Assembly (NCBI GenBank): GCA_025362495.1
Contig: JANYGI010000056.1
Span: 1-64,000 of the forward strand
Direction: 5' to 3'
DNA length: 64,000 bases
Source of the DNA: Byssovorax sp.
Lineage (GTDB): Bacteria; Myxococcota_A; Polyangia; Polyangiales; Polyangiaceae
Shown here piece after piece: positions 2,884 through 63,635 of this stretch (positions within the stretch are counted from its first letter, which is position 1; every line of letters begins with the position of its first letter). The notes beneath the pieces were generated by a model. The model was not told where the DNA came from. It made no database searches and saw nothing but the letters and a program-made list of their open reading frames with translations. Made by a program: the position numbers and the translations under genes.

Positions 2884-3070
2884 GGTGTTTTCTTTCGATC
2901 TACGGTGTTGGGAATCATCGACGACACTCACGACCTTCGCGCGGGTTGGCTCGTCTGGCGAGCCGGCTTGCGCCGACGCCGTGCCCCGCACTCCACAGGG
3001 AGACGCGGCTCGCGGCCATGTGTAACAAGAAAACTTGCGCGCAGGGTTCGGCGGCGATGACGCCGAGGCC

Positions 3071-3274
3071 TCAGTTCTCATCCAGCTTGAACGCGCCGCC
3101 CTCCTCGCTCACCTGGATCTTGGCGAACGAGGCCGGAGTCTTGCCCGCGGCCGGGTGCCAGATCTGGTACCAGGCATCGCAGTCCGAGGCGTGGGCCGCT
3201 AGCATCCGCGCCGACACGCAGCGCCGGAGCTCGCTGCAATGAACCGCGACCTCGTCCTCGAAGTCGGCGTTCAT
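3071..3274 (-). CDS. Possible small protein (67 aa)
   Basis: A 67-residue frame with balanced, non-Arg-rich composition, unlike the shadow frames around it, and three Cys. No signal peptide and no obvious ribosome binding site before ATG 3274. It may be the surviving 3' end of a longer gene. No family recognised. Confidence 0.35.
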   Translation of the reverse strand: MNADFEDEVAVHCSELRRCVSARMLAAHASDCDAWYQIWHPAAGKTPASFAKIQVSEEGGAFKLDEN

Positions 3275-3655
3275 TTACGAAGACGGTCAGCGAAATCCAA
3301 GTCTCGTCCAACGTCGGCCCTCGCGTTCAGCGGCGAGCGCCTCTTCCACGAGCTCGCACCGTAGCAGAGGTCGCGTGCGGGCAGCCAGCGTGAGGTACGA
3401 ACACTGGCTGCCCGTACGCGACCTCGGACGACGGTCCCCATGTCCAAGGGCGGCGCTCGTCCGCTGCAACGCAGGATCGGGCGGCACGCACAGGACGCTG
3501 GCGCGGCTTCGGCGTCACGCCGGAGCGAAGCCCACCCGAGCGCCACCTTGAGGGCGAGCTGGCGTCGCCATAACTGGACCGCCCGCGCTGCTATCGGGTA
3601 GCCTACGACCAGCGACGATGGCACGGCTGGGTCGCGGCGAGACAAGGCGGTATCC
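3275..3655. other. Gene-free stretch carrying a long inverted repeat
   Basis: About 380 bases without a supportable gene. Its main content is the 22-bp-arm hairpin at 3367-3425. On the minus strand the flank reads PPDPALQRTSAA, which looks like translated repeat DNA rather than a protein. The promoter of the 215-residue gene should lie near 3600-3655. Confidence 0.4.
3367..3425. repeat. Long near-perfect inverted repeat (22-bp arms, 15-base loop)
   Basis: Left arm 3367-3388 (GAGGTCGCGTGCGGGCAGCC then AG) pairs with right arm 3404-3425 (CTGGCTGCCCGTACGCGACC then TC). 21 of 22 positions are Watson-Crick; the remaining one can form G-U in RNA on one strand. There is no T-run after it, so it is not a classical terminator. 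A dispersed intergenic repeat or the end of a small mobile element is more likely. Confidence 0.75.
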
Positions 3656-4303
3656 GTGGCGAAGAGAGTATCCCCGAAGGGCAAGGTCGCTAAGCGCAAG
3701 GTGAAGAAGAGTGGGACGCAACGGACGCCGTACCCGGAAGGTTTGGCGGCGTTGGCGAGACCAGGGGCGACGACGGACGACTTGCGCCGGTGCCGGGTAG
3801 AGCTGGCGCGCGCCGTCAACGTCATGATCGACCATGCAGTCGTACACATCGCCCTTTGCGACAGCCGTGCGGACGACGCCCACCGGTTCCTTCGCGACCT
3901 TGAAGCACTTACGCAGCGGTTTCACAGACGCCACGTCAGCCCGACGCGAATCGAAGGCGTGGAGGGCGCACTCCGGTCGATGGCGAGTGCCGTGTTCGTC
4001 GGTGATCGCAGTGAACTGTTCCCGGACCACCACAATCTCGCCAGAGAGCTCCTTTGGGACAAGCGCGATCAAGATGACTTTGACGAGCAAGTATCGAACC
4101 TCGCCAAGCGTCTCAACGTCCACTTTCACGGTTGGGAGCGTCTTCCGGCCGATCCGATGGAAGCTGTGGAGCAGGCGTTCAAGGTGGCCAACCTGGACCC
4201 GTACAATGTGATCGACGCTCCAGCAAAGATGCGCGCGCACCGCGAGCGCCAGAAGATGGCCACAGAACCGGCAGGGCCGAAACGGCGACCGCGGGCTACC
4301 TAA
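3656..4303 (+). CDS. Hypothetical protein, basic N terminus, helical
   Basis: 215 residues from GTG 3656, preceded by AAGGCGG at a good distance. The first 25 residues are Lys/Arg-rich (RVSPKGKVAKRKVKKSG), and the last 25 are basic too; such tails suggest nucleic-acid contact. The body is predicted helical and acidic, with HRFLRDLEALTQRFHRRHV and DLDEQ-like segments; no enzyme motif. Base composition is visibly less GC-rich than the neighbouring genes, suggesting acquisition. No family recognised and no obvious partner gene. Confidence 0.6.
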   Translation: MAKRVSPKGKVAKRKVKKSGTQRTPYPEGLAALARPGATTDDLRRCRVELARAVNVMIDHAVVHIALCDSRADDAHRFLRDLEALTQRFHRRHVSPTRIEGVEGALRSMASAVFVGDRSELFPDHHNLARELLWDKRDQDDFDEQVSNLAKRLNVHFHGWERLPADPMEAVEQAFKVANLDPYNVIDAPAKMRAHRERQKMATEPAGPKRRPRAT

Positions 4304-4322
4304 CGGCTACCCCGTCGCGTTA

Positions 4323-4607
4323 GTGCGCACCGCGCTGCATGCTGCGCTTATGAAAACGCCGCGCTCTCTGAAGGCTCAAGTTGCCAACCCGCTCCGTCGC
4401 ACTGCCGGGACGCATGGGCGCCGCGGTGCGTCCACCGCTCCACCCAACCCCGCCGCCGCTCCGAGGGCGTGGAGGGGGGCCCTCGCAGCCACAGTCGCGA
4501 TCGTGGGGGCCGGCAGTGCCACGCGGAACTCCGATACGCGCGTCTTGCTTGCTGCGCTCGCGTTCATGGCGATCCTCGCGGTGGTGGATGTGCTTGGAAC
4601 CCGTTAG
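4323..4607 (+). CDS. Possible small membrane protein
   Basis: 94 residues from GTG 4323 (an ATG at 4350 is an alternative). The C-terminal half could form two short hydrophobic helices (ALAATVAIVGAG and VLLAALAFMAILAVVDVL). The first half is Ala/Pro/Arg-rich. It follows the 215-residue gene by 19 bases on the same strand. Neither start has a convincing ribosome binding site, so this may be non-coding. Confidence 0.3.
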   Translation: MRTALHAALMKTPRSLKAQVANPLRRTAGTHGRRGASTAPPNPAAAPRAWRGALAATVAIVGAGSATRNSDTRVLLAALAFMAILAVVDVLGTR

Positions 4608-4621
4608 CACGAGGCGCAGCG

Positions 4622-4650
4622 GTAGAGGGCAGGGGCACCCCGTCCTCTAC
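4622..4650 (+). terminator. Weak terminator-like hairpin
   Basis: GTAGAGG (4622-4628) and CCTCTAC (4644-4650) are exact complements, with GGGG/CCCC adding inner pairs. It lies 15 bases after the stop of the small frame ending at 4607. No T-run follows, so termination is only a suggestion. Confidence 0.25.
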
Positions 4651-4882
4651 AGTTCGCCCCCGTCTGCTCGACAGTGCCGCGGAAGTCCCGTCCATGGTCA
4701 GCACCCTGCAGGTTGGTGCCTCCCGTTTGGTCCTTCTCGACCCAACGCCCGGCCCGCCCAACGCCCTGCCGTTCACTCGCGGCCGGCGCAGCCGGCCGTC
4801 GAGTGCAACGGCTTGTTCGGAGGCTGCAAGCCAACAGGCATCATCGTTCAATTACTCACGACTTTCGTTTCACAGCGCGAGG

Positions 4883-5284
4883 TCACCAGCGAAGTACGCT
4901 CAACCCTGGGATCCTCGGAAAGCTGCGTTCGTCTCGTGTCGCGACGTCGTACCCCACGGCAAGCGCGGTGGCGGCGATCAGGAGGTCATGCGCACCAACC
5001 GGTGAACCCCGCGCGGCAAGCTCTGCCGAAAGACGTGAATGCACACGTGCAACTACCAGGTCGAACGGGATTAACGGCAGATCTGCGAGCAGCCGCTCGA
5101 CGAATGCTTCTCGCCGATTGCGCTGTGCGGAATCCGCTGCGCGGTGCACTCCGTGCAACAGTTCGGACGCGGTGATGGCTGAGATGGCGATCGGCGCATC
5201 CCCGTAGTCGCGAAGCACGATTTCCAGGTCAAGTTTGCCTCGCTCGGCGGCGATTAGCACACTTGAATCGATCACGGCTCCCAC
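4883..5284 (-). CDS. vapC: VapC-type PIN-domain ribonuclease toxin
   Basis: 133 residues, typical PIN-domain toxin length. The acidic Mg-binding set is visible: Asp in AVIDSSVLIAAERG (residue 6), Glu in ITASELLHGV (residue 41), Asp in VGAHDLLIAATAL (residue 100) and a further Asp in DVATRDERSF (about 118). Known VapC proteins cut tRNA or rRNA when freed from their antitoxin. The gene overlaps the upstream antitoxin gene by 13 bases, the usual translational coupling for such pairs. DNA here is less GC-rich than the chromosome average. Specific RNA target unknown. Confidence 0.9.
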   Translation of the reverse strand: MGAVIDSSVLIAAERGKLDLEIVLRDYGDAPIAISAITASELLHGVHRAADSAQRNRREAFVERLLADLPLIPFDLVVARVHSRLSAELAARGSPVGAHDLLIAATALAVGYDVATRDERSFPRIPGLSVLRW

Positions 5285-5538
5285 GGCACCTCCGGCAACG
5301 TGGGCTGGCTGTTAGCGATTTCCTGGACTGCGTCGAGGTAGGCGTCATCGGGGCGCGGCGCCGATTGAAGCAGTCGCACGAGGTCACGCACCGTGCGCTG
5401 TGGGCGTCTCACCGGCGCGATCTGACAGATCGGCTCGCCTGCTTGCTCGATAACGAAGACCGCCCCGTCCGTTCGAACCCGCTCGATCATCTCGGGAAAT
5501 GTCTGGGCGGCTTCGGCTGCAGAGATGTGCGACACCAT
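5272..5538 (-). CDS. vapB: Antitoxin of the Phd/YefM type, partner of VapC
   Basis: 88 residues from ATG 5538; the open frame runs further upstream but there it passes through the palindrome array and is not protein-like. The start MVSHISAAEAAQTFPEMIER, followed by TDGAVFVIEQAGEPICQIAPV, is the DNA-binding N-terminal fold of Phd/YefM antitoxins (normally V-x-x-A-K-x-x-L-x-x-L ... V-I-T-x-x-G-x-P-V-A). The C-terminal part (DDAYLDAVQEIANSQPTLPEVPWEP) should wrap around the toxin. It probably represses its own promoter. Confidence 0.85.
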   Translation of the reverse strand: MVSHISAAEAAQTFPEMIERVRTDGAVFVIEQAGEPICQIAPVRRPQRTVRDLVRLLQSAPRPDDAYLDAVQEIANSQPTLPEVPWEP

Positions 5539-6303
5539 GCGCGTCAGGGTACCCGGTCCGGCCCCGCTGGCAACACCTACGAGTATGGTCAGAACACGCT
5601 CGCCCGAAGGCGGGTTGGTTGCCGTAGCAACGGATCTCTCGCCCGCCGAACGTGCCATTCGACGAATCCGCCGATCGCTGTCGCCCCAGATCGGCCTATT
5701 CCGACAGACGGCAGCCGAGGCTCGCCGATCTCCGCCAGACTTGCTAGGCAGTGCCGTTACCAAAACTTCTCGTCCAGATCTGTCGAACGCCGCCGCGCCT
5801 GCTGCCGCGCGCTCTCCTGGCCATTCGGCGCCGGTCGCAGACCGCCCGAGGGCCAGGATTGGCCTGCCAGCGTCCCGGAGCTCTCGCCGAGGGGATCTCG
5901 AGCTTGATGACCAACGTTGGCGGGTCTGTCGCGGAGGGGCGAGCACTGTAACCAATACCCGTTTTTCGCGGAGAAGCACCGCATCGCGCTCCGCGCTGAT
6001 CTGGATCACCCGGGACCAGGATGCATCGCGCCCCAGGCTGATCCAGATCACCCCGGACCAGGATACATCGCGCTCCCGGCTGATCTGGATCACCCGGGAC
6101 CGGGATGCATCTCACCCCAGGTTGATCCGGATCACGGAGGAACGAGATGCATCGCCCGCCGGGGTGATCCGGATCACGCGGGACCAGGATGCATCCTGCC
6201 GCGGGCTGATCCGGATCACGAGAAAGCCGGCAGCATTGCTTTCCGTCGCGCTCCCGGTCGACTGGGAGCCTATCCCGCCGCGTTGTAGTTCGGCGAGACG
6301 GCG
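5539..6303. other. 765-base gene-free region with a palindrome array
   Basis: Between the antitoxin start and the stop of the next minus-strand gene I see no convincing protein. All frames across the repeat are open because its period (42 bases) is a multiple of three and lacks stops. Outside the array (5997-6218), 5539-5950 shows no motif that I recognise, and 6250-6269 holds a GCTCCC/GGGAGC hairpin just past the stop of the 257-residue gene, a possible terminator. Confidence 0.6.
5995..6218. repeat. Tandem 42-bp repeat made of two alternating palindromes at an exact 21-bp period
   Basis: Five full 42-bp units start at 5995, 6037, 6079, 6121 and 6163, with a partial sixth at 6205. Each unit holds the 12-bp palindrome TGATCCGGATCA (exact in copies at 6123, 6165 and 6207; one change in copies at 5997, 6039 and 6081) and the 8-bp palindrome GATGCATC (exact at 6020, 6104, 6146, 6188; GATACATC at 6062). 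Centres fall at 6002.5, 6023.5, 6044.5 and on to 6212.5, always 21 bp apart. The 11-base spacers vary much more than the palindromes. Confidence 0.95.
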
Positions 6304-7902: not shown

Positions 7903-9909
7903 TCACGCGAGGTCCCAGCAGAGGGCGCGGAGGAGCTCCGCGACGGAGACGGCGTGCGCGACGCAGCCGCCCGGCGCGTGCGGCTCGTCGCCGTCGGCGA
8001 GCTGCGGGACCTGGCCCACCGCGAGCTCGTTGCCGGCCGCAGAGGCCACGAGGCGGTGCAGCAGCGGGGCGAGGCTCGCGCCGTCGGCGCTTCGGCGCGC
8101 GGCCCGGACGAAGAAGCCGAGGAGCCAGGGCCACGCCGCGCCCTGGTGGACGGCGGACTCGCGCGCCGCGGCGTTGCCCGACGCGTGGCCGGTGTAGCGG
8201 GGATCTTCCCGGGCGAGCGCGCGGAGGCCGGCGCGCGTGACGAGGCTCTGCGCGCGATCGAGCAGCGCGGAGGCTTGTTCGGCCGTGAAGCACGCGGGAT
8301 CGACGGCGAGGGCGATGACTGCGTTGGGGCGAATCGAGGCGTCGCGGAAGGCGCCCGGTCCCTCTTCGAGCTCGCTCACGACGTCGTACGGGAAGCCCGT
8401 GGCCTCGCACCAGAAGCGGCGGCGGAAGGCCGCGTGGGTGCGATCGCGCTCGCTTTCGGCGCGCTCGGCGAGGGCCATGTCGCCGCCCGCGCGGGCGAGG
8501 CGCGCCACGGTGTCGCAGCCGCGCGCCCACAGGGCCGAGAGCTCGACCGGGCAGCCGAGGCGCGGCGTGACGGCGGCGCCGCCGCGGCGGGCATCCATCC
8601 ACGTCGGCGCGGCGTCGACGACGGCGCCGGCGCTCACGGCGAAGAGGCCGTCCGGGGTGAGGTGGATCCCGTGGTGTTTGCCCTCGATCACCGCCTCGAA
8701 CGCGTCGCGCAGCGCGAGGCAGAGCTCGTCGGTGACGAAGGTGTGGCCGTCGCCGAGTGCGTCGGCCATGTGGCGCGCGGCCTCGAACAGCCAGAGCGAA
8801 GTGTCGGCCGCGGCGAGCTCGGCGGCGGCGCCCTCGCCGACGTGGCTCGGGACGAGCCCAAAGGCCATGTGCGCGAGGATCTCGCGGAGCACGCGGATCG
8901 CCGCGTCGTGCTTCTTCGTCACGAGGTAGAGGCCGGGGAGAGCGATCAGCGCGTCGCGCCCGCGCATGTCGAGGTGGGGGTAGCCGGCGATGATCCCGGG
9001 GCGGCGCGCGAGATCGGCGCGGAACGCCTCGGCCGCGATGAAGAGCTTGCGCTGGAGCGGGGGCGCCGTGGGCCCGGGATCCTCGGCGCGGAGCGCGGCC
9101 TCCGTCGCGGCGAACAGCGCCTCGGGCTCGCCCGTCGGCAGCCGATCGACGCCGGCCACGAGGTAGCTCGGCGCGTCGCCGATCGACATCTCGAAGACCC
9201 CCGGCGTCCAGAGATCTTCCTCGAAATCCAGGCCGCGATCGCGCTCTGCCAGGTACTCGAAGCGGCGCCACCAGTCCGGCGATCCGACGAAGGTGCCCTC
9301 GTAGCGAAAGCAGAGGCGCGGGAGATCCTTCTTCGGCTGGACGCGCATCTCGCCCGGGCGCAGCTCGACGCGCTGGAGCATCCCGCCGTTCTCGCGCTGG
9401 AGCTTGTGGAAGCCGCGCGCCGCGAGCAGCGGGCGGAGCGTGAGCAGCACCGGGCGCTTGCCGCGGAAGCGGTAACGGAGCACCGCCGCGTTCTCGCCGC
9501 GCACCAGCGCCAGCGTGATCTCGAGCTCGCCCGCGGGCACGGAGTACGTCCATCGGGGGAGCGGATCCTGATCGAACCGCTGCAGATAAAAGGGCCCCGT
9601 CGTGGGATCGACGCTCGGGAACTGGTGCTTCGCGAGGTCCCACCGCTGGCGGCTCGGAGGCCCGGCGCCCTCGCGCGGCAAGGAGATCGTCGCGTCGACG
9701 TGCGAGAGGAACAGGTGCCGCCCCTCTGGCGGATCGAGCGCCGCGATCAGGAGGCCGTGGTAGCGGCGCGCGTGCATGCCGGCGATCGTCGACGAGGCGT
9801 ACGCGCCCGCGCCGTTGGTGTGGAGCCACTCGCGGCGCGCGCGGGTGAGGTCTCCCGCGACGACGACGCTCGGCCAGACCGACTCGACGCCGGATGTCGG
9901 GAGCACCAT
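7903..9909 (-). CDS. Glycogen debranching enzyme (amylo-alpha-1,6-glucosidase type)
   Basis: 668 residues. N-terminal domain carries the family signature REWLHTNGAGAYASSTIAG (residues 26-44) and RRYHGLL, as in archaeal/bacterial GDE proteins; the C-terminal (alpha/alpha)6 domain includes YPHLDMRGRDALIALPGL (around 345), TSLWLFEA, RPNAVIALAV and the HQGAAWPWLLGFF segment near 590. The enzyme hydrolyses alpha-1,6 branch points of glycogen in the cytoplasm. Its ATG shares one base with the aroE stop (TGATG), so translation is coupled to aroE, a mix of carbohydrate and shikimate genes probably reflecting only co-transcription. Confidence 0.9.
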   Translation of the reverse strand: MVLPTSGVESVWPSVVVAGDLTRARREWLHTNGAGAYASSTIAGMHARRYHGLLIAALDPPEGRHLFLSHVDATISLPREGAGPPSRQRWDLAKHQFPSVDPTTGPFYLQRFDQDPLPRWTYSVPAGELEITLALVRGENAAVLRYRFRGKRPVLLTLRPLLAARGFHKLQRENGGMLQRVELRPGEMRVQPKKDLPRLCFRYEGTFVGSPDWWRRFEYLAERDRGLDFEEDLWTPGVFEMSIGDAPSYLVAGVDRLPTGEPEALFAATEAALRAEDPGPTAPPLQRKLFIAAEAFRADLARRPGIIAGYPHLDMRGRDALIALPGLYLVTKKHDAAIRVLREILAHMAFGLVPSHVGEGAAAELAAADTSLWLFEAARHMADALGDGHTFVTDELCLALRDAFEAVIEGKHHGIHLTPDGLFAVSAGAVVDAAPTWMDARRGGAAVTPRLGCPVELSALWARGCDTVARLARAGGDMALAERAESERDRTHAAFRRRFWCEATGFPYDVVSELEEGPGAFRDASIRPNAVIALAVDPACFTAEQASALLDRAQSLVTRAGLRALAREDPRYTGHASGNAAARESAVHQGAAWPWLLGFFVRAARRSADGASLAPLLHRLVASAAGNELAVGQVPQLADGDEPHAPGGCVAHAVSVAELLRALCWDLA

Positions 9910-10844
9910 CACGCCTCCGTTCCGCGCGAGGCGAGGGCTTCCTCGGCCGCGCGGCGCATCACGAAGGCGGGCGCGTCGTGGCCCGTCCACATCCTGATCG
10001 CCAGCTCGGCCTGGCGCACCAGCATGCCGAGGCCGCCCTCGGCCTTGAAGCCGTGCTGGCGCGCCGTCGCGAGGAACGGCGTGACGGGCGGGTTGTAGAC
10101 GACGTCGTACACGAGGGCCTGCGCGGGCAGCCGATGCCACGGCACGATCGCCGTCACGTCCTCGCCGCGCGAGCCGCCGAGCATGCCGGCGCTCGTCGCC
10201 TGGATCACGCAGTCGGCGTCGGCGACGAGGTCGTTCCACTGGAGGCGCAGCACCTGCGAGGCCTTGCTGCGCTCGGTCGTCGGCGCGTCGCCTTCGCCCG
10301 GCCAGAGCGTGGTCAGCACGCCGAGCGCGCGCGCCCGCTCGGCCGAGGTCGACTCGTACATGGCCTCGCTGTTCGACCACGAGCGCGAGGTCGCGCACAC
10401 CAGCTTGAAGCCGAGGCGACGGCACGCCGCGATCGCCGCGAGCGCCGCGCCGCCGCCGCCGATCACCGCCGCGCGCGATTTCGGCCGCCCGGTCCACTGC
10501 GCGCCGAGCTCCGCGGTGAGGGCGTCGACGTCGGTGTTGTGCGCCGTGACGCGCCCGCGGGAGACCGTGAGCAGGTTGGCCGCCCCGACCTCCACCGCGC
10601 TCGGCGCCACGGTGTCGACGAGGCCGAGCACCGTCTGCTTGTAGGGCAGCGTGACGTTGGCGCCGTCGATCGCGCCGCTGCGGAGATCGTCGATCGAGTC
10701 GCGCAGATCGCTCTCGGAGCCGATGTCGAGCGCCGTGTAGATGTCGCGCTCGCCGAGGACGGCGAGGGCTGCGTTGATCATCGCCGGCGACACCGAGTGA
10801 GCCACGGGGTGCCCGAGCAGGGCGAAGCGCTTCCACTTAGACAT
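9909..10844 (-). CDS. aroE: Shikimate dehydrogenase
   Basis: 311 residues from ATG 10844; the frame is open further but MSKWKRFALLGHPVAHSVSP is the family N terminus. Shikimate-binding motifs HSVSPAMIN, NVTLPYK (catalytic Lys) and NTDVDAL are present; the nucleotide fold has GGGGAALAAIAA; the C-terminal GLGMLVRQAELAIRMWTG provides the usual Gln. It reduces 3-dehydroshikimate to shikimate with NADPH in aromatic amino-acid synthesis. An insertion around residues 195-225 makes it longer than the usual 270-280 residues. It overlaps xseA by 8 bases upstream and the debranching gene by 1 base downstream. Confidence 0.92.
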   Translation of the reverse strand: MSKWKRFALLGHPVAHSVSPAMINAALAVLGERDIYTALDIGSESDLRDSIDDLRSGAIDGANVTLPYKQTVLGLVDTVAPSAVEVGAANLLTVSRGRVTAHNTDVDALTAELGAQWTGRPKSRAAVIGGGGAALAAIAACRRLGFKLVCATSRSWSNSEAMYESTSAERARALGVLTTLWPGEGDAPTTERSKASQVLRLQWNDLVADADCVIQATSAGMLGGSRGEDVTAIVPWHRLPAQALVYDVVYNPPVTPFLATARQHGFKAEGGLGMLVRQAELAIRMWTGHDAPAFVMRRAAEEALASRGTEA

Positions 10845-12327
10845 TGCGGATCGGTTCCGGAGACGGGGAGGTCGAGAGGACGCGCGCGGTGAACGTACCA
10901 CGATGGACCCGGACGTTGACGGTGTCGCCCACCGTGACCTCGGCCGCGTCGCGGACGGCGGCGCCCTCGACCGAGCTGGCGATGGCGTACCCGCGGCCGA
11001 GCACCGCGAGCGGCGACAGGGCGTCGAGGCTCGCCGCGGCGGCCCCGAGCTCGCGGCGACGCGCGGCGACGACGCGACGGGCGGCGGCGCCGAGGCGGAC
11101 CGAGAGCGGGCCCAGCGCGGCGCGCGCCCCGGCGAGCACCGTGCTCGGGTGGCGCGCCCCGAGGCGTCGCTCGAGGCGGGCGAGCTCGCCCCTGTCCGTG
11201 GCCAGGCGGCCGCGCAGCACGGCCTCGATGCGATCGAGCGCGTCGTCGACGTCGCGGCGGTGATCGCCGAGGAGCCGCTGCGGGGTCCCGAGCCGCGCGC
11301 GCAGCCCGTCGAGCGCGCCCTGATCGATGGCGAGGCGATGATCGAGGGCCCGCTCGAGCCGCACGCGCAGCCCGTCGATCGCGCCCTCGCGCGCCTCGGC
11401 GTCGGCCACGACCAGCTCCGCCGCCTGCGAGGGCGTCGCGGCCCGGCGATCGGCCGCGAGATCGGTGAGCGTGGTGTCGATCTCGTGGCCGACGGCGCTG
11501 ACGATCGGCACCCGCGACGCGGCCACCTTGCGCACCAGCGCCTCGTCGTTGAAGGCCGCGAGATCGTCGGCCGAGCCGCCGCCGCGACCGAGGATTATCG
11601 CCTCGATCTCCGGCACCTGCGCCAGCAGATCGAGCGCGCGGATCATCTGCGCGGCGGCGTTCGCGCCCTGCACCTGGGCCGGCGCGAGGATGACCCGCAC
11701 CCGGCCGCGGCGCGCCGCGACCTTGATGATGTCGTGGAGCGCCGCCCCGCTCGCGCTCGTGACGACGCCGATGACCCGGGGATCGGTGGGCAGCGGTCGC
11801 TTCTTCTCGACGGCGAAGAGCCCCTCGCCCGCGAGCTTTTCCTTGAGCCGTTCGAGCGCCTCGAGCAGCGCCCCGCGCCCGACCGGTCGCACCTCGTCCG
11901 TGGTGAACTGGAGGCGCCCGCTCGGCGCGTAGACGGTGGCGCGACCGATGAGCACGACCCGCGCGCCGTCGACGAGGAGGCGCTTCGATCGCGAGGGAGC
12001 GCGCCCGTACATCACGGCGTCGATCACGGCCTCTTCGTGCTCGTCCTTGAGGCGAAAATAGCTGTGCCCGCTCGGGACGACGCGCAGCCCGGAGACCTCG
12101 CCCTCGACGTGGACGCCCGCCGTGTCGCCCTCGACCAGCCGCTTGAGGCGCCGATCGAGCTCGCCGACCGAGATGACCACCGGCTCGGGCTTGACCGCCG
12201 ACGTACGCGCCGAGGGCGGCAGCGCGGGCTCGGACGTGACGGACGTGACGGACGTGACAGCGGTGACGGGCGCGACCGGCGTCGACGGGGCGATCGGCGG
12301 CGCCGGGATCGCCGGCTCCGGGAGCAT
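10837..12327 (-). CDS. xseA: Exodeoxyribonuclease VII large subunit
   Basis: About 496 residues from ATG 12327; GTG 12375 with a weak GGATT before it is an alternative. A Pro/Ala/Val/Thr-rich tail of about 55 residues precedes the OB-fold (ISVGELDRRLKRLVEG ... GHSYFRLKDEHEEAVIDAVMYG). The catalytic domain shows IGVVTSASGAALHDI, ILAPAQVQGANAA, IILGRGGGSADDLAAFNDE and SAVGHEIDTTLTDLAADRRA, all standard for XseA; a long coiled coil follows, and SPLAVLGRGYAI near the end is the usual segment. With XseB it degrades single-stranded DNA. No xseB is visible in the window. First gene of the unit xseA-aroE-debranching enzyme. Confidence 0.93.
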   Translation of the reverse strand: MLPEPAIPAPPIAPSTPVAPVTAVTSVTSVTSEPALPPSARTSAVKPEPVVISVGELDRRLKRLVEGDTAGVHVEGEVSGLRVVPSGHSYFRLKDEHEEAVIDAVMYGRAPSRSKRLLVDGARVVLIGRATVYAPSGRLQFTTDEVRPVGRGALLEALERLKEKLAGEGLFAVEKKRPLPTDPRVIGVVTSASGAALHDIIKVAARRGRVRVILAPAQVQGANAAAQMIRALDLLAQVPEIEAIILGRGGGSADDLAAFNDEALVRKVAASRVPIVSAVGHEIDTTLTDLAADRRAATPSQAAELVVADAEAREGAIDGLRVRLERALDHRLAIDQGALDGLRARLGTPQRLLGDHRRDVDDALDRIEAVLRGRLATDRGELARLERRLGARHPSTVLAGARAALGPLSVRLGAAARRVVAARRRELGAAAASLDALSPLAVLGRGYAIASSVEGAAVRDAAEVTVGDTVNVRVHRGTFTARVLSTSPSPEPIRNV

Positions 12328-12485
12328 CGATGCGAAGTCGAACGACAGGGTCTTGGGACGGGAGAGTCGAGCCACGGCAATCCAGCAGTAGCCTGGGATC
12401 CTGCGATAGAAAAGCAGGTAATGTCGCCGCCTTCCCTCGCCTGCGGTTGAAGCGACCACGACGTGCACCTACGGTCCGCCTGCTC

Positions 12486-13772
12486 ATGAGCTCCGACAAG
12501 GCCGCCGCGCCCAGCGCCTCTCCGCCGTCGCCCGAGGCACCATCACCGTTCGCGGCCTTTCATTCGCGCGACTTCTGCTTCTACGCGGCCGGTCGCACCC
12601 TCGCGACGATCGCGCTGCAGATGCAGGCCGTGGCGGTGGGCTTCCAGGTCTACGCCCTCACGCATCGCGCGATCTCGCTCGGCTACGTCGGGCTCGCGCA
12701 GTTCCTCCCGGTCGTCACCCTCTCGCTCGCGACGGGGCACGCCGCGGATCGCTTCGATCGCCGAGGGCTCCTCATCGGCTGCCACGCGCTCGCCGCGGCC
12801 TGCTCCGTGGCCTTCTGGCTCCTCGCGCGCTCGGCGAACCCCAGCCTCTTCGCCATCTACGCGACGCTCGTCGTCCTCGGCGTCGCGCGCGCCTTCTGGG
12901 GCCCCGCGGCCTCGGCGCTCTTGCCTTCGCTGGTCCCGACGAAGCACTTCCCCAACGCCGCGAGCTGGGCCTCGACGCTCTGGCAAGTCGGCGCGATCGG
13001 CGGCCCCAGCCTCGGCGGCCTGATCTACGGCCTCCGCGGATCGGCCGAGCCCGTGTACCTCGCGGCCGCGATCGGGATCAGCGGCGCCGCGCTGCTCATC
13101 GCGGGCATCGGCGTGCGCACCGGCCGCCTCGAGCGGCGCCCGCCGTCGATCGCCACGGTCCTCGCCGGGCTCCGCTACGTGTGGTCGTCGAAGATCCTCC
13201 TCGGATCGATCTCGCTCGATCTCTTCGCGGTGTTCCTCGGCGGCGCGGTCGCGCTGCTGCCGATCTACGCGACCGACATTCTCCACGTCGGCGCCCGCGG
13301 CCTCGGGCTCCTTCGCAGCGCGCCCGCCTTCGGCTCCGCCGCGATGGCCATCTTCCTGGCGTTTCGCCCGCTGCGCCGCCGCGTCGGCCGCACGATGATG
13401 CTCTTCGTCGCGCTCTTCGGCCTCGCGACGATCATCTTCGGCCTCTCGAAAAGTTTCCTGCTCTCGCTCGCGGCCCTCACCGTCCTCGGCGCGGCCGACA
13501 TGGTCAGCGTCGTCGTGCGGATGACGCTCGAGCAAGCCGCGGCGCCGCCCTCCATGCGCGGTCGCGTCAGCGCGGTGAAATTCGTGCTCGTCGGCGCCTC
13601 GAACGAGCTCGGCGATCTCGAGTCGGGCGTCGCGGCCGCGCTGCTCGGCACCGTGCCCGCGGTGGTCGTCGGCGGCATCGGGACGGTGCTCGTCGTCGCG
13701 ATCTGGAGCGTGCTCTTCCCCCAGCTCCGCAACGTGGATCGCTTCGACGACGTGAAGTCCACCGAGCCGTGA
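12486..13772 (+). CDS. MFS transporter, EntS/multidrug-exporter-like
   Basis: 428 residues from ATG 12486 after an Ala/Pro/Ser-rich cytoplasmic start. About 12 hydrophobic segments; loop 2-3 carries GHAADRFDRRGLL, the MFS motif A. The DFCFYAAGRTLATIALQMQAVAVGFQVYALT start and the PPSMRGRVSAVKFVLVGASNELGDLESG segment are typical of the enterobactin-exporter (EntS) / DHA3-like subfamily in the inner membrane, which exports siderophores or drugs. Substrate cannot be read from sequence. It is divergent from xseA; the 158 bases between starts should hold both promoters. Confidence 0.88.
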   Translation: MSSDKAAAPSASPPSPEAPSPFAAFHSRDFCFYAAGRTLATIALQMQAVAVGFQVYALTHRAISLGYVGLAQFLPVVTLSLATGHAADRFDRRGLLIGCHALAAACSVAFWLLARSANPSLFAIYATLVVLGVARAFWGPAASALLPSLVPTKHFPNAASWASTLWQVGAIGGPSLGGLIYGLRGSAEPVYLAAAIGISGAALLIAGIGVRTGRLERRPPSIATVLAGLRYVWSSKILLGSISLDLFAVFLGGAVALLPIYATDILHVGARGLGLLRSAPAFGSAAMAIFLAFRPLRRRVGRTMMLFVALFGLATIIFGLSKSFLLSLAALTVLGAADMVSVVVRMTLEQAAAPPSMRGRVSAVKFVLVGASNELGDLESGVAAALLGTVPAVVVGGIGTVLVVAIWSVLFPQLRNVDRFDDVKSTEP

Positions 13773-62447: not shown

Positions 62448-63281
62448 TCACGTGCTGCGCTCCTGATGCTCGGCGACCGCAATCACGAGTCGCTCGACAT
62501 CCGCCGAGTAGAGCCGGCTCCCGTTGAAACAGTTGCACTCGACGATTTTCCAGCATCTGTCGACTCGTGCAACATCAATGACGAACACGCTTGCCGGCGC
62601 CCATCGAGACACCGCGGACGTGGCAAACGTGACCAGATCGCGGGGAACGTTCGGATCTCCGCTCGGTCGATACATACTGCCGGTCACGAAAGCCCCGTCA
62701 ACGAAGAACAGTCGCCATTCTGCGTCGACCTCCTTTGGTCGGCCGATGACGACCTCGGATTCTGGATCGATGGGACGCGCCGTCTTCCGCAGCGCTTGAT
62801 ACAGGTCGCCCGCCTCCGCGAAGCGAAGAGCCTGCCCTGTGAAGTACTTGAGGTCGTCGTTCGGCTTGAGGAAAAACACGTCGTCCGGGCCGCGCGGCTC
62901 GCGGAGGAGTCTCTCCCATGACATGATCTGCGCATCAGCGTTGAGCATGTCGCGCCCCCAAGCCGCCGCGTACGCTCGGTGCTGAAAGCGCTCGGGGTCG
63001 AAGAAGACGCCGTGTCGCCATCTCGGGTGCTCGAGCGCCCGCAGGATCAGGGTTGTGCGACCATGGAGAACCACCGGCCCGTCAACTTGCGGCATGTCGG
63101 GGAGCATTGCTGAACCCGCGACTACCGAGATTTCGTGAAAGGGGGATTCGATTGCAGAGCAAGCACGACGCAGGGCTGCCGGGGACGTTGACTCGGGGTC
63201 GACGTTGGTCTGAACGATCCAGGAGGTGCGCGTGGTCAATGGATCAACTCTTGATGACGTACGTCGGGCTTGTTCTGCCAA
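62448..63281 (-). CDS. ATP-grasp (DUF4343-like) protein
   Basis: 277 residues. The second half carries the ATP-grasp pattern: DVFFLKPNDDLKYFTGQAL, VVIGRPKEVDAEWRLFFVDG, VFVIDVARVDRCWKIVECNCFNGSRLYSADV, the last resembling the VEYNCFN element of DUF4343 proteins. Such enzymes join a carboxylate to an amine or thiol using ATP; substrate unknown. DNA from here to about 63.9 kb is less GC-rich than average, and it lies between an IS66 remnant and a toxin-antitoxin pair, so it was probably acquired. Confidence 0.8.
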   Translation of the reverse strand: MAEQARRTSSRVDPLTTRTSWIVQTNVDPESTSPAALRRACSAIESPFHEISVVAGSAMLPDMPQVDGPVVLHGRTTLILRALEHPRWRHGVFFDPERFQHRAYAAAWGRDMLNADAQIMSWERLLREPRGPDDVFFLKPNDDLKYFTGQALRFAEAGDLYQALRKTARPIDPESEVVIGRPKEVDAEWRLFFVDGAFVTGSMYRPSGDPNVPRDLVTFATSAVSRWAPASVFVIDVARVDRCWKIVECNCFNGSRLYSADVERLVIAVAEHQERST

Positions 63282-63341
63282 CGCCTGGGCCGATCTGCTG
63301 CGCGCGCGGCGCCCGTCAGCTGATCGGCTTGTTCGCCAAGC

Positions 63342-63635
63342 TCAAGCTCGTCGTTTCCACGCTCCTGGATGCCTGTGCCCGTGAAGGACGCCTACGACAA
63401 TGATACCTTCCGGCTGAACTCGGTACAAGATCGCATACGGAAACCGAGTCACCAGCGCTCTTCGAAGGTCCCGATACACAACAACCGATGCCAGCGGGGA
63501 AGTTCGTAGGCGTCGGATGGTGTCATTCAATGCAGCTCGGAAGACGCTGCCCAGGCCTGGTCGCTCGTTCTCGTACCAACGGAAAGCTTCGAGCGCTTCT
63601 TCTCGGGCTTCAGCGAGAAGAACGACTCGTCTCAC
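63342..63635 (-). CDS. RelE/ParE-type toxin
   Basis: 97 residues. VVLLAEAREEALEAFRWYENERPGLGSVFRAAL ... FPYAILYRVQPEGIIVVGVLHGHRHPGAW is characteristic of the ParE/RelE fold (Tyr-E-x-x-x-P-G-L-G, and the final VxxxxHxxRxP). ParE-type toxins poison gyrase or mRNA translation. It overlaps the antitoxin stop by four bases (ATGA). Confidence 0.9.
   Translation of the reverse strand: MRRVVLLAEAREEALEAFRWYENERPGLGSVFRAALNDTIRRLRTSPLASVVVYRDLRRALVTRFPYAILYRVQPEGIIVVGVLHGHRHPGAWKRRA

Follow-up and report, generated by a model that had tools for sequence, protein, structure and literature searches.

The inverted repeat found at positions 3367-3425 of the window (the whole 64,000-nt stretch of Byssovorax sp. 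DNA analysed here) is, at a probability which we put at about 95%, the tip of an integron attC site ending a gene cassette. In integrons, the bottom strand of such a site folds into a hairpin with bulges, whose R and L boxes are bound by the integrase IntI, and crossover takes place at R'. With this reading, an unexplained intergenic repeat becomes a recognised recombination site, placed in a small cluster of integron cassettes in which two attC sites have toxin genes beside them, within a large GC-rich genome.

The repeat described in the original prediction is real, with arms at 3367-3388 and 3404-3425 which pair in 21 of 22 positions around a 15-nt loop and are not followed by a T-run. Arms of 22 nt with no more than one mismatch and a loop of 3-30 nt occur once in the window and in none of five first-order Markov shuffles. 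In addition, the RNA fold of 3340-3450 reached -63.9 kcal/mol (z -6.41) and the single-stranded DNA fold of 3306-3482 a z of -7.05, and in each case none of 200 shuffles folded equally well. The coordinates first given to the repeat do hold a hairpin but are incomplete, being the apex of a larger palindrome with outer arms at 3323-3341 and 3452-3472 and end boxes at 3306-3312 and 3476-3482. Likewise, its position outside any gene is correct as regards plausible genes, although mechanically listed ORFs overlap it. The parts of the site are as follows:

3306-3482, minus strand (cassette orientation): attC recombination site (very probable), 177 nt; basis, the covariance model R1 described below and a paralogue on contig C145
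3306-3312, minus strand: R' box GTTGGAC, the predicted crossover point; basis, sequence
3323-3341, minus strand: L' arm GGCGCTCGCCGCTGAACGC; basis, sequence and R1
3367-3425, no strand: apex hairpin, the 22-bp repeat, read as the variable terminal structure; basis, sequence and fold
3452-3472, minus strand: L'' arm GCGTTGCAGCGGACGAGCGCC; two of its bases, 6 nt apart and reading G and A on the minus strand, are extrahelical
3476-3482, minus strand: R'' box GCCCGAT, degenerate with respect to RYYYAAC

Outside the hairpin the boxes follow the order R''-L''-L'-R'. The L'' and L' arms pair in all 13 core positions and leave two bulges, 6 nt apart, and the cassette end agrees with the R' consensus GTTRRRY. 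This asymmetry of the bulges, together with the flanking R boxes, is the anatomy of an integron attC on the minus strand of the window. The R'' box departs from its consensus, since RYYY is retained and AAC is replaced by GAT, and six of the seven R-box positions pair only when G-T pairs are counted. RYYYAAC is a loose sequence consensus, and we read the 3306 site as a degenerate attC member, not as another kind of element. A strict R/L grammar with two bulges matched the window once, at the 3306 site, missing the second site described below, and had no match in the reverse or the complement of the window or in 10 shuffles.

The repeat had been proposed to belong to a dispersed family, a proposal which a single copy in the genome was to overturn. 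A second copy does exist on contig C145, with 76% identity over 152 nt, so that the idea was right in spirit, although the kinds then suggested, a REP/MITE-like element or a small structured RNA, are not favoured. The two copies have in common the outer arms GCGTTCAGCGGCGAGCGCC and GGCGCTCGNCCGCTGCAACGC, paired save for two extra bases in one arm, and their R boxes read, at 3306 and on C145 respectively, GTTGGAC and GTTGGGC (R') and GCCCGAT and GTCTAAC (R''). The peptide noticed around the repeat, which had been associated with translated intergenic repeats, was a good lead: PPDPALQRTSAA is the minus-strand translation of R'' plus L''. PALQRT-like peptides may mark attC sites; a literature search for 'PALQRT' strings found no paper.

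By DNA similarity, 3040-3660 matched no plasmid at E 0.01, and 3340-3450, compared at the same threshold with 59 genomes including its own, matched only the own genome and 22 nt in one relative (G004). With 3300-3490 and 377 genomes of the phylum, the best two first-look candidates of each listed genome being scored, matches were obtained in at least 21, the own genome included. When 14 of these loci from other genomes were given to R1, L243 alone proved to be an attC, and the remaining 13 are thus no evidence of kin.

For the construction of R1, two public collections were scanned with a 17-base pattern covering the R'' end and L'', which gave at least 134 loci, and a script requiring the L' motif (up to two substitutions) and an R' box found 22 four-box sites among the 134 listed loci. 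After removal of three near-identical repeats in locus L095, 19 attC-like sites from other records remained (56-162 nt, all shorter than the 177 nt of the 3306 site). The model contains no site of the own genome, but both the L'' pattern and the L' motif were derived from it; the genome_contigs loci and the own-genome loci have no 40-mer in common. R1 gave 40.8 bits (E 2.9e-9) to 3306-3482, 40.9 bits (E 2.8e-9) to 4756-4821, 24.9 bits (E 1.6e-4) to 63276-63337 and 51.8 bits to the C145 copy. Covariation was assessed on 13 distinct R1-matched sites that are not in the training set. Of 20 pairs, 13 changed on both sides, and the score was 0.453, compared with 0.153 after shuffling (0/500 as high) and 0.034-0.077 after sliding. 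The alignment was fitted to the model, which biases the count in its favour, and a few of its matches are weak, e.g. L217:8917-8988 (22.2 bits). Covariation in the training set, selected for nearly fixed arms, was not above that of shuffles (60/500 as high).

R1 was also applied to 78 loci out of the 134, the training ones among them. It gave 67 matches at E <=0.05, and in many loci these formed one-strand arrays, eight sites long in L101. The background is illustrated by a Williamsia locus (L076; 28.7 bits), which has the seed pattern and no array, and by a match on contig C148 (28.0 bits) without the R' GTT triplet, probably due to chance. Therefore, scores near 25-28 bits do not by themselves decide, and the 24.9-bit candidate at 63276 rests on its context, while scores of 40 bits look safe. 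Short arm patterns were uninformative for copy counts (11 matches vs 10 in the control, and 5 vs 4 in the reversed control). The pattern TGAACN{4,12}CGTTRGRC gave 8 matches vs 2 in the control; three are known sites, and R1 supports one of the other five, on C18 (31.6 bits). The R1 search of the own genome scored 150 of 21854 first-look candidates, missing 4756-4821, and that of 59 relatives, the own genome included, gave matches in at least five and missed sites in G018, so that all genome-wide attC counts given here are lower bounds.

The surroundings of the site hold the following features:

4756-4821, minus strand: second attC, 66 nt, with R' GTTGGGC and R'' TCCGAAC; basis, R1 and a DNA fold of z -4.96
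3312-4761, minus strand: complete cassette between two R' sites, 1450 bp; basis, coordinates
3656-4303, plus strand: 215-aa ORF of the 1450-bp cassette, antiparallel to attC
4883-5284, minus strand: VapC-type PIN-domain toxin gene (PF01850, 57.3 bits, cut-off 23.6)
5272-5538, minus strand: probable Phd/YefM-type antitoxin gene, overlapping vapC (PF02604, 20.5 bits, below the cut-off of 29.8)
3071-3274, minus strand: 67-aa ORF just past R' of the 3306 attC, without a Pfam match
63276-63337, minus strand: weaker attC candidate, 62 nt, with R' GTTGGCA and R'' GGCGAAC, both off consensus
63342-63635, minus strand: ParE-family toxin gene (PF05016, 32.0 bits, cut-off 23), without an NCBIfam match

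At the 4756 site, the L'' core reads CACTCG and the L' core CGAGTG, a clean compensatory change. The vapC gene ends 61 nt before this site on the same strand; NCBIfam VapC models match its product below their cut-offs, and no NCBIfam model matches the antitoxin candidate. The ParE-family gene, in turn, stops 4 nt before the candidate at 63276. As regards the 1450-bp cassette, the product of 3656-4303 has no Pfam or NCBIfam match and, in a search of 183 genomes of the order, no relative, being found in its own genome only. Codon-position composition is also compatible with an overlapping minus-strand ORF (3515-4240); we consider 3656-4303 the likelier gene of the cassette, the minus-strand ORF ending at 3515 being a possible one. 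R1 found no attC after ORF 3071-3274. Upstream of the vapBC-like genes, 5981-6220 consists of about 5.7 tandem copies of a 42-bp unit with the palindrome GATCCGGATC.

Since no integrase lies near the attC cluster of the window, the only above-cut-off IntI match of the genome being on another contig, the 3306 and 4756 sites are a CALIN, defined in the available text of PMC9892861 as a cluster of attC sites lacking an integrase. The likeness lies in at least two attC sites 1.3 kb apart, in the lack of a nearby integrase and in a probable toxin-antitoxin cassette; the difference is that the own genome carries IntI elsewhere. This match to the integron-integrase family, on contig C55, scores 437.6 bits (cut-off 265), and the protein aligns over 312 residues (284 bits) with 2A3V, which was deposited under the name of site-specific recombinase IntI4 and which we take to be the integron integrase of Vibrio cholerae. 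Over its first 16 kb, C55 yielded no attC (best R1 score 12.8 bits). The integrase ORF (238-1431) stops 237 nt short of the contig end, and a cassette array could lie beyond it.

Among 59 genomes, the own included, an integron-integrase match at E <=1e-60 was present in eight and above the cut-off in seven. In four of the nine listed integrase matches (own, G012, G029 and G005), some 250-310 nt separate the 3' end from a contig end; the matches near contig ends are G000:C55:238-1431 and those of loci L209, L208 and L210. Perhaps the contig ends 3' of integrase genes reflect an assembly-breaking repeat, which may be a cassette array. In the relative G018, the IntI gene has three attC matches (31-34 bits) 5' of it and a weaker one (22.2 bits) on the other side, the integrase frame holding one TGA. 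attC sites located 5' of the integrase gene are the classical integron layout. The layout of another relative, G006, is unlike that of G018, with an attC match (L220 62-210, 37.3 bits) 3' of the integrase gene in the same orientation and, on G006:C156, three more within 2.1 kb.

Further attC candidates of the own genome are located on contigs C145 (after a kinase-like gene), C52 (after an FRG-domain gene), C18 (after a MORN-repeat gene) and C61, where they follow an unassigned 381-aa ORF, an FRG-domain ORF and other ORFs, the last of which overlaps its own site. Altogether, eight sibling candidates follow same-strand ORFs, hand-picked from mechanical lists, seven of them 4-64 nt past the stop and one overlapping: the gaps are 61 nt for VapC, 4 for ParE, 64 for the kinase-like, 24 for the FRG and 32 for the MORN gene, and on C61 16 nt, 33 nt and a 39-nt overlap. 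R'' agrees with RYYYAAC on C145, in three C61 sites and on C52, and not exactly at 4756, at 63276 and on C18 (GCAGAAC). On C61 (L223), the stretch 8336-10592 carries three successive candidates (49.2, 18.7 and 27.5 bits) with ORFs between them, and the neighbouring minus-strand ORF 10817-12496 has, by eye, the look of a large serine recombinase. The cassette gene on C145 (L057 7480-8925) encodes a protein kinase domain (PF00069, 76.7 bits), and its product is weakly similar, below cut-offs, to the phage-defence MADS and BREX kinases.

Other explanations have to be weighed against this background. A MITE- or REP-like dispersed element moved by a transposase could account for two copies in one genome, 76% identical over 152 nt and with imperfect terminal inverted arms. 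Nevertheless, such an origin is highly improbable, since both copies end in integron R'/R'' boxes around a bulged stem, most of the other candidates in the genome have the R/L structure in common and not the sequence, the eight siblings come after same-strand ORFs, and an IntI is encoded in the genome. The very stable fold would also suit a transcription terminator or a structured RNA, such as a small RNA or a riboswitch, a reading that we find barely credible: a T-run is lacking, and no Rfam family reaches its gathering score in 3000-3700, where the sole match up to E 1, mir-7147 (25.7 bits vs 90), is best read as chance. Moreover, the R boxes and the outer stem with its bulges are consistent with integrase binding, with no RNA role needed, and a weak terminator effect would be compatible with attC.

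A third alternative, to which we give somewhat less than even odds, accepts the attC and takes it for a fossil, formerly active and now dead through its R'' box, where GCCCGAT replaces RYYYAAC and the C145 paralogue retains GTCTAAC. It is opposed by the intact R' and L boxes and bulges and by the pairing of the R boxes, as counted above. The activity of the predicted 3306 site may be lowered or abolished given its degenerate R''. Points that count against the attC reading itself are this box, a length beyond that of all training sites, the presence of IntI on another contig with no attC in its first 16 kb, and the antiparallel orientation of the likelier cassette ORF, as well as the R1 background near 28 bits, the derivation of the training patterns from the own genome and the control-level counts of the short arm patterns.

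If the 3306 site is an attC, we infer that it would have arisen by IntI-mediated insertion and would work as a folded strand. Its bottom strand, i.e. the plus strand of the window, would fold into the bulged hairpin, IntI would bind the R and L boxes, the extrahelical bases picking the strand used, and crossover at R' (3306-3312) would have cassettes inserted, excised or shuffled. The 3306 and 4756 sites would bound the 1450-bp cassette, adjoining a VapBC-like one. According to the accessible part of PMC2727003, it is the bottom strand that folds, and both the choice of strand and the efficiency depend on the extrahelical bases of the R''-L'' arm. In the same source, exchange of the 65-nt variable terminal structure in a VCR shifted bottom-strand recombination by no more than 1.6- to 2.4-fold. 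On this precedent, the 22-bp repeat would be the variable terminal structure rather than a recognition element, and the part that matters least to the site.

A wider proposal, which we regard as rather unlikely, is that of a 'scattered' integron, in which the C55 IntI, acting in trans, would have seeded small clusters with several unrelated attC types at many chromosomal places, with no single array. If so, some of the clusters would carry toxin genes, and toxin-antitoxin cassettes would keep the individual clusters in place. A single genome with several attC types that differ from one another would allow a direct test of whether a resident integrase inserts cassettes off target.

attC sites are a familiar kind of element, as are CALINs, and the site of the window is an added example. 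In the text available of PMC8618304, 14 phyla with integrons are named and Myxococcota is absent from them; PMC12772301, as far as its accessible text goes, states that Myxococcota integrase descriptions are lacking and describes an integrase in Myxococcota MAGs, and the excerpt of PMC9668308 counts Myxococcota among the phyla with attC sites. No first is claimed, since the available portions of the latter two sources already place an integrase or attC in the phylum. As to known types, the site resembles the VCR-type attC of Vibrio cholerae, as presented in the accessible text of PMC2727003, in its R''-L''-L'-R' order, in having bulges on the R''-L'' arm only and in its long branched tip. It differs in its length of 177 nt, in the degenerate R'', in the near-perfect 22-bp tip hairpin and in the base nearest R'', which is C on the folded strand, in contrast to the conserved G given in that text. 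The array of Deltaproteobacteria bacterium OFTM107 (L086) shares the L'' arm and likewise has a long tip (162 nt), with no tip similarity by eye, and is denser than that of the window, with seven R1 matches in 8 kb on one strand. This record and genome G224, of the same phylum, have 2385 40-mers in common.
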